Of a DNA stretch of 20,024 nt, positions 2,971-3,478 are shown one piece after another. The DNA is from a virus. Within the stretch, counting starts at the first letter, position 1. Each line of letters begins with the position of its first letter. The stretch is taken from the IMG/VR virus record IMGVR_UViG_3300020129_000305, positions 1 to 20,024 of that record. One strand, 5' to 3'. The notes under the pieces were generated by a model, which saw only the letters and a list, made by a program, of their open reading frames with translations, did no database searches and was not told the DNA's origin. Position numbers and translations under genes: made by a program.

Positions 2971-3015
2971 GGGTGTGACATCCGCACGAATGCCATTCAC
3001 GGGAATGTCACACCC
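2971..3015. promoter_or_regulatory. 45-bp nested dyad with GGGTGTGACAT arms
   Basis: Perfect 11-bp outer arms GGGTGTGACAT (2971..2981) and ATGTCACACCC (3005..3015) surround an inner inverted repeat GAATG-C-CATTC (2988..2998) with the same centre at 2993. Of 22 half-site positions, 18 are symmetric. The inner repeat has a 1-base centre, which suits a DNA-level protein site better than an RNA loop. The dyad covers the last codons and TGA (3008..3010) of the replication initiator gene and precedes the zinc-ribbon gene. The outer arms match the 2364..2402 dyad. Termination is a second possibility, but there is no T-tract. Confidence 0.65.
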
Positions 3016-3478
3016 CCCTGGCCGGCTGAGACGGGCAGACGATCGCGACGAGGGCGTGGGTGGCGGGGTCCCAGGTTTCGAGCCAGCCGGTGCCCTTGCA
3101 TGGGCATCCTGGGGCGTGCTTGGCGCGACCCCCGCGTTCTTTTACACGTTCCTTTACAAGTTCCCCGTGCTTGGAGTTGCCGCGGTCACCGGCAGCAGTT
3201 GCCGCGGTACCGGCACCAGTTGCCGCGCGGCAACCGGCTGCCGCGGTGTCTGTGGATAACTGGAAGAGGAGGCTTGAGCCGGGCCGGTGGACCACGGTCA
3301 GCAGCCCGAGGTCGACCAGCCGGCGCACGGCGTAGCGGACCGTCCGCGGTGACAGGGCGGTGTCCTTGGCGATCGCCGCCAGCGACGGCCAGGCCTGCCC
3401 GTCCCGGTTGGCCCGGAACGAGATCGCCAGCAGTACGTACTTCGCCGACGGGTCGGGCAGGTCCTCGTCGAAAGCCAT
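3008..3478 (-). CDS. Replication initiator, winged-HTH O-like (156 aa)
   Basis: Residues ~8-75 form a winged helix-turn-helix of the HTH_36 type used by phage replication proteins: SAKYVLLAISFRAN, GQAWPSLAAIAKDTALSPRT, VRYAVRRLVDLGLLTVV. It is followed by a low-complexity linker (residues ~76-118, rich in Ala/Gly/Thr, then ELVKERVKERGG) and a short C-terminal domain with C125-P-C127 and C148. The linker is encoded by tandem DNA repeats that look like origin iterons, as in lambda O, so the protein probably binds its own gene to start replication. No helicase or loader gene is seen nearby, so host enzymes may be recruited. ATG 3478 has GGAGGT 9 nt upstream; GTG 3499 would give the GTGA overlap common here and 7 more residues. 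Confidence 0.75.
   Translation of the reverse strand: MAFDEDLPDPSAKYVLLAISFRANRDGQAWPSLAAIAKDTALSPRTVRYAVRRLVDLGLLTVVHRPGSSLLFQLSTDTAAAGCRAATGAGTAATAAGDRGNSKHGELVKERVKERGGRAKHAPGCPCKGTGWLETWDPATHALVAIVCPSQPARGV
3141..3259. other. Candidate phage replication origin inside the initiator gene
   Basis: Plus-strand layout: two tandem 12-mers in an AT-richer stretch, TTTACACGTTCC (3141..3152) and TTTACAAGTTCC (3153..3164), which match at 11 of 12. Then four copies of a GC-rich iteron around (G)TTGCCGCGGT: 3176..3197, 3198..3218, 3219..3236 and 3237..3250. The third is the perfect palindrome GTTGCCGCGCGGCAAC. Directly after comes TGTGGATAA (3251..3259), the exact complement of the DnaA box TTATCCACA. 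Iterons, DnaA box and a likely unwinding stretch inside an initiator linker match the architecture of lambda ori in gene O. Function is inferred. Confidence 0.65.

Follow-up and report, generated by a model that had tools for sequence, protein, structure and literature searches.

A segment of ~120 bp (3136 bp–3259 bp) within a 20,024 bp IMG/VR virus record is quite likely to be the theta replication origin of the phage, lying inside the gene of its own initiator and combining iterons with a DnaA box. The record (the window, meaning the whole 20,024 bp stretch that was analysed) is probably a fragment. We established the anatomy of the segment, its excess of repeats over chance, the recurrence of this arrangement at the DNA level in relatives and the prediction of a winged helix-turn-helix (wHTH) fold for the encoded protein. 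On the best reading of these features, we infer that the segment would function as a lambda-O-type origin with a DnaA site of the iteron-plasmid type. The features are as follows.

3008 bp–3478 bp, minus strand: replication initiator gene, 156 amino acids, ATG at 3478 (sequence, HTH_36 and PHROG matches)
3257 bp–3451 bp, minus strand: winged helix-turn-helix domain, residues 10–74 (AlphaFold2 prediction)
3251 bp–3259 bp, minus strand: DnaA box TTATCCACA in gene-strand reading (TGTGGATAA on the top strand), at the border of wHTH and linker
3238 bp–3247 bp, plus strand: iteron 1, CTGCCGCGGT (sequence)
3219 bp–3234 bp, strand not applicable: iteron 2, GTTGCCGCGCGGCAAC, a perfect 16-bp palindrome
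3199 bp–3208 bp, plus strand: iteron 3, TTGCCGCGGT (sequence)
3177 bp–3186 bp, plus strand: iteron 4, TTGCCGCGGT, in another reading frame than iterons 1–3
3136 bp–3165 bp, strand not applicable: presumed duplex-unwinding patch (instability rank, two tandem 12-mers)

The initiator gene and its genetic context

The ATG of the initiator gene was preceded by GGAGG (3488 bp–3492 bp, minus strand). Residues 10–60 of the protein matched the Pfam family HTH_36 (E=1.3e-10), and PHROG families annotated as 'replication initiation' or O-like were matched at E=4.5e-15 to 1e-5, the 'O-like' families at E 1.6e-10 and weaker. The Pfam phage-O family was absent among the matches at E<=0.01, and RP-C, the sole plasmid-replication family matched in Pfam, was below its cut-off and covered the HTH only. 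AlphaFold2 modelled the winged helix at residues 10–74 with confidence and the remainder as disordered, with block means of pLDDT >90 for residues 11–60 and ~50 from residue 80 onward; therefore the origin elements fall in the coding sequence of the disordered linker. A fold search of the PDB with this model returned weak MarR/TubR-type winged helices as its best matches and none at E<=0.001. The product is thus a predicted winged-HTH phage replication initiator.

The C-terminal tail of the protein (3011 bp–3130 bp) contained Cys (HAPGCPCKGTGWLETW...IVCPS), and the initiators of the related loci L003–L007, L010 and L088 finished in a short helix-like stretch such as KVEELRSRL or KVAEIRAAL; this possibly marks a difference in helicase recruitment. 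An inverted repeat (2971 bp–3015 bp) with 22-nt arms that were 82% complementary, ends GGGTGTGACAT and ATGTCACACCC and no T run seen, spanned the 3′-end of the gene (stop at 3008) and is a possible operator or other binding site.

In the phage collection, the capsid protein of the contig matched 34 records, all of them Mycobacterium phages, which supports an actinobacterial host and agrees with the earlier assignment of the window to an actinophage. The contig also encoded a tyrosine-type integrase (Pfam, PHROG), so that the phage is probably temperate. Downstream of the initiator, an Endonuclease VII-like gene (471 bp–914 bp, minus strand, E 1.8e-20) and a Dam-like methyltransferase gene (1843 bp–2361 bp, minus strand, E 2.3e-24) were found, and an ORF with collagen-like repeats (16,097 bp–17,188 bp, minus strand) lay amid the virion genes. 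Upstream of the initiator, 4031 bp–4669 bp (minus strand) encoded a conserved phrog_10048 protein, for which 143 relatives were found and which has this position in many environmental phages.

Putative origin elements and their excess over chance

The box, the four iterons and the 12-mers all lay inside the minus-strand initiator gene. Each of the elements named in the original prediction (four iterons, the 16-bp palindrome, the DnaA box and the tandem 12-mers) was present where it had been placed, exact to the base. The iteron cores, GCGGCA on the gene strand, begin at nucleotides 235, 253, 274 and 296, which gives spacings of 18, 21 and 22 bp. One iteron was the perfect palindrome and the other three were direct copies, and the exact core had no further copy anywhere in the 20,024 bp window. 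The 12-mers TTTACACGTTCC (3141 bp–3152 bp) and TTTACAAGTTCC (3153 bp–3164 bp) directly abutted. The claim that they lie in an AT-richer patch was borne out, as the 30-mer over them was less stable than 99.97% of the 30-mers of the contig (the 0.03% least stable).

Repeats were compared with a synonymous-codon null in which the protein and the codon usage were held fixed. Direct pairs of repeated 8-mers in the window gene numbered 21 versus 8.3 +/- 4.1 (p 0.009) or 7.4 +/- 3.9 (p 0.005) under this null, and inverted 8-mer pairs also exceeded it (p 0.005). The linker, AAAGCRAATGAGTAATAAG, is low in complexity, and the repeats might be taken for the product of an Ala/Gly/Thr linker written in GC-rich codons. 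This is scarcely credible, however, as the synonymous null was rejected, relatives with unrelated linkers showed likewise and the copies lie in two frames, iteron 4 encoding DRGN and the in-frame copies TAAT/RAAT. Successive copies of the L088 repeat GGGTGGCGCTCAGTAC similarly encoded different peptides, GWRSV and then VALS. Since the copies occupy different reading frames in both the window and L088, they are not protein repeats.

It is also very improbable that the repeats are operators of a self-regulating wHTH repressor and have no origin function. MarR/TubR regulators do share the wHTH fold, and sites bound by plasmid initiators often serve as operators too, but the repeats lie ~220–300 bp downstream of the start codon, with a DnaA box and the most unstable DNA alongside, and the families matched are annotated as initiators. 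The cumulative GC skew had its minimum at 4018 bp, near the initiator gene; it was set aside as evidence because this minimum is shallow (-60, compared with a final value of +667) and gene orientation tends to shape skew. Rfam and tRNA scans gave no matches.

Iterons and AT-rich patches in related initiator genes

No close relatives of the window initiator were found in viral contigs, genome contigs, phages at high coverage or plasmids, and because of this the iterons of the window itself could not be traced by alignment. Relatives were instead reached through the neighbouring phrog_10048 gene, which led to L003–L007 and then to 80 loci; a second scan of genome contigs with the family of this gene gave no matches. 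Queries with the wHTH only added L088 and L091–L104. The resulting comparison set held 22 non-redundant wHTH initiator genes, namely that of the window and 21 from other viral contigs.

Almost every one of the 22 genes had its own, distinct iterons in the linker, above the synonymous-codon null. In L003–L007, where the wHTH gene is downstream of the phrog_10048 neighbour, the null was exceeded in all five (in L007 at k=7 and 8 only). The linker repeats were of the AATCTGTACTCAGTACAGAT type in L003 (five copies, 22–24 bp apart), the ACCCCTGGCGTAGCGCC type in L004 (three copies at 21 bp), AAACCGTCGCA in L006 (at 21–22 bp) and the AGCGTTACCCGAGCGGGAC type in L010 (at 33 bp). When 1029 genes of the loci were ranked by repeat excess, 12 of 14 wHTH-profile matches fell within the top 62, and other top-ranked genes (in L018, L038, L073 and L055) resemble initiators. 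L039 and L021, weak matches to the wHTH profile, were dropped as they had no repeat excess. The loci from wHTH queries showed the excess in 13 of 15 cases, comprising L088 (p=0.002) and 12 of the 14 loci L091–L104; it was absent from L103, a short fragment, and from L104. In L018, L038, L073, L055, L066 and L030, repeat excess over the synonymous null flagged likely phage initiator genes without recourse to homology.

An AT-rich patch followed the iterons in most relatives. The proteins of L006 and L088 were 46% identical and differed in iteron sequence and box orientation; both loci nevertheless keep the layout of box, then iterons, then AT-rich patch. Across the relatives, linker protein and iteron sequence both change, whereas the presence of iterons and of the patch is kept. 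The original prediction had set its reading against relatives that keep the linker and lose the iterons and box; the opposite was seen for the iterons and the AT-rich patch, while the box occurred in about half of the genes. Repeat excess and this recurrence support its reading of the segment as a putative lambda-like origin in the initiator gene. The in-gene iterons that it had treated as a feature of this phage were present but not special to it, as putative in-gene iterons are a general property of the HTH_36-type phage initiator class, non-actinobacterial phages included.

DnaA boxes within the initiator genes

Within the window, TTWTNCACA was matched solely by the box at 3251 bp–3259 bp. 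A lone box has an expectation of 0.16 per 20 kb and at least one was present in 15 of 100 shuffles; the single box of the window is weak alone and gains significance only via its recurrence in relatives. For the comparison set, boxes were scored as TT[AGT]TCCACA; a looser consensus, [TC][TC][GA]TCCAC[AC], was dropped as too common in GC-rich DNA. The sequence TTGTCCACA is a Streptomyces oriC box (PMC3583192).

Eleven of the 22 non-redundant initiator genes carried a box. There were 13 boxes in 14,854 bp of initiator genes versus 1 in 177,464 bp outside them at the same loci (binomial P 4.5e-14), and the synonymous null gave a mean of 0.76 and a maximum of 4 in 2000 shuffles. As the first boxes had been noticed before the test was framed, L091–L104 were scored as a hold-out set. 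Its ten non-redundant genes, from loci collected with a profile of two box-carrying initiators (L006 and L088), held 7 boxes in 7.5 kb versus 0 in 53 kb outside, with a synonymous-null mean of 0.43 (P 0.0005).

In most cases the box coincided with the final wing strand or followed it closely, and it preceded the iterons or fell between them. The boxes of the window (encoding LSTD) and L088 (encoding FSTK) read in the direction of the gene; those of the other relatives are on the opposite strand and encode VVDN, VVDK, LVEK or LVDKN. As both orientation and encoded residues vary, the apparent constraint on the box acts at the DNA level. We consider it improbable that the enrichment is a by-product of conserved VVDN/VVDK residues that follow the final wing strand: several boxes do have this coding context in common, but the residue-preserving null yielded far fewer boxes, the window and L088 boxes encode other residues from the other strand, and other parts of the gene hold the box of L098 and a second box in each of L091 and L095. 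Homology probably links the VVDN-type boxes of L006, L091, L093, L094 and L095; the box counts therefore do not represent independent events, and protein conservation could account for some of the box signal.

The strict box was absent from the initiator genes of L004, L005, L010 and L011, all of which have iterons. The box sets apart a subgroup with small initiators. A plain in-gene origin of the lambda O type, with a box that is unused for initiation and is a regulatory or transcriptional leftover or due to chance, is possible, if on the unlikely side. Described Microcystis, Sphingopyxis and Pseudomonas phages, together with L004, L010, L011, L030 and L066, have in-gene iterons without a DnaA box, and a lone box would arise in 20 kb with a probability of ~15%; against this, the initiator genes are enriched in boxes, as confirmed in the hold-out set, and the box position is kept though its orientation and residues change.

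Helicase and loader genes

The contigs of the window, L003–L007 and L010, which are fragments, had no DnaB_C or IstB/DnaC matches, and most contigs of the box-carrying subgroup, fragments too, showed neither a DnaB nor a DnaC-like gene. L011, which lacks the box, carried both DnaB_C and IstB-type matches, and L004, L005 and L010 had neither strict box nor helicase on their fragmentary contigs. Two described phages with a like initiator and no in-gene DnaA box had DnaB close by; these Sphingopyxis and Pseudomonas phages encoded it near the initiator, the Pseudomonas gene overlapping the end of the initiator gene. The correlation of helicase absence with the box is only suggestive, and an absent helicase gene is a weak argument because the contigs are fragments. 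To our knowledge, actinobacteria lack DnaC.

Comparison with known origins

In the origins of lambda and the Stx phages, the middle of the O gene holds four iterons, beyond which comes an AT-rich tract where the duplex opens. Each lambda iteron is an inverted repeat of 19 bp to which O binds as a dimer, and the adjacent gene encodes the loader P; in the accounts cited, DnaA acts on ori-lambda via the pR promoter and competition for DnaB, with no box among the iterons (PMC7466680, PMC5043065). Like lambda O, the window initiator has a predicted N-terminal winged-helix DNA-binding domain and iterons in its own gene, adjoined by an easily opened AT-rich tract. Unlike lambda, the protein is only 156 amino acids, a DnaA box is present and no DnaC- or DnaB-type gene was seen. 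The iteron plasmids P1, F, pSC101, RK2 and R6K have mostly direct iterons about two helical turns apart, an AT-rich patch and a DnaA site, and use the host helicase (PMC5043065). The window resembles them in its direct iterons at 18, 21 and 22 bp, DnaA box and AT-rich region, but their origin normally lies outside the rep gene and their initiators belong to other families.

Initiators of HTH_36 and of PHROG 391, 270, 1032 and 8540 (Microcystis phage Mvi-Yong1342-1, Sphingopyxis phage VSN-002 and Pseudomonas phage PseuP_224) share with the window the wHTH and the in-gene linker iterons; unlike the window, these three genes have no DnaA box. Mycobacteriophage RepA prophages have a protein-dependent origin for which the authors propose a possible place upstream of repA or inside it, like that of lambda; RepA is of plasmid type with 320–350 amino acids, no iterons have been identified, and the prophages are extrachromosomal with parABS (PMC7157519). 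The window phage differs from these parABS prophages in having a tyrosine integrase. The in-gene origin of the Streptomyces linear plasmid pSLA2 is a possible precedent. No description of a DnaA box within a phage initiator gene was found in the literature searched, which took in only part of the subscription papers.

Proposed mechanism and significance

With its winged helix, the 156-amino acid protein would bind the four iterons, forming a complex that would bend the DNA and open the adjoining AT-rich 12-mer patch. Host DnaA at the TTATCCACA box may then stabilise the complex and aid in bringing in the host replicative helicase DnaB, a recruitment that is proposed because no phage helicase or loader was seen on the contig. 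Such a scheme would work as the lambda origin does, with the initiator gene as the origin, supplemented by a DnaA site like that of iteron plasmids. The evidence is evenly balanced on a broader proposal, by which small, mostly actinobacterial temperate phages have fused both textbook origin designs. These phages would pair an in-gene origin, as in lambda, with helicase delivery by host DnaA via a box conserved at the border of wHTH and iterons; the initiator of 150–200 amino acids would act without phage helicase or loader, and replication would be tied to the initiation state of the host.

Actinophage origins have barely been mapped, and the mycobacteriophage RepA origin was left unplaced and without iterons (PMC7157519); the present analysis gives a precise candidate of ~120 bp. 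It also offers a rule for finding origins, namely a DnaA box together with linker repeats that exceed the synonymous null in a wHTH initiator gene, and the repeat excess could serve as a general finder of phage origins. As a minimal initiator, the protein lends itself to the study of helicase recruitment by a phage in bacteria that lack DnaC, and small replicons for actinobacterial vectors could follow.
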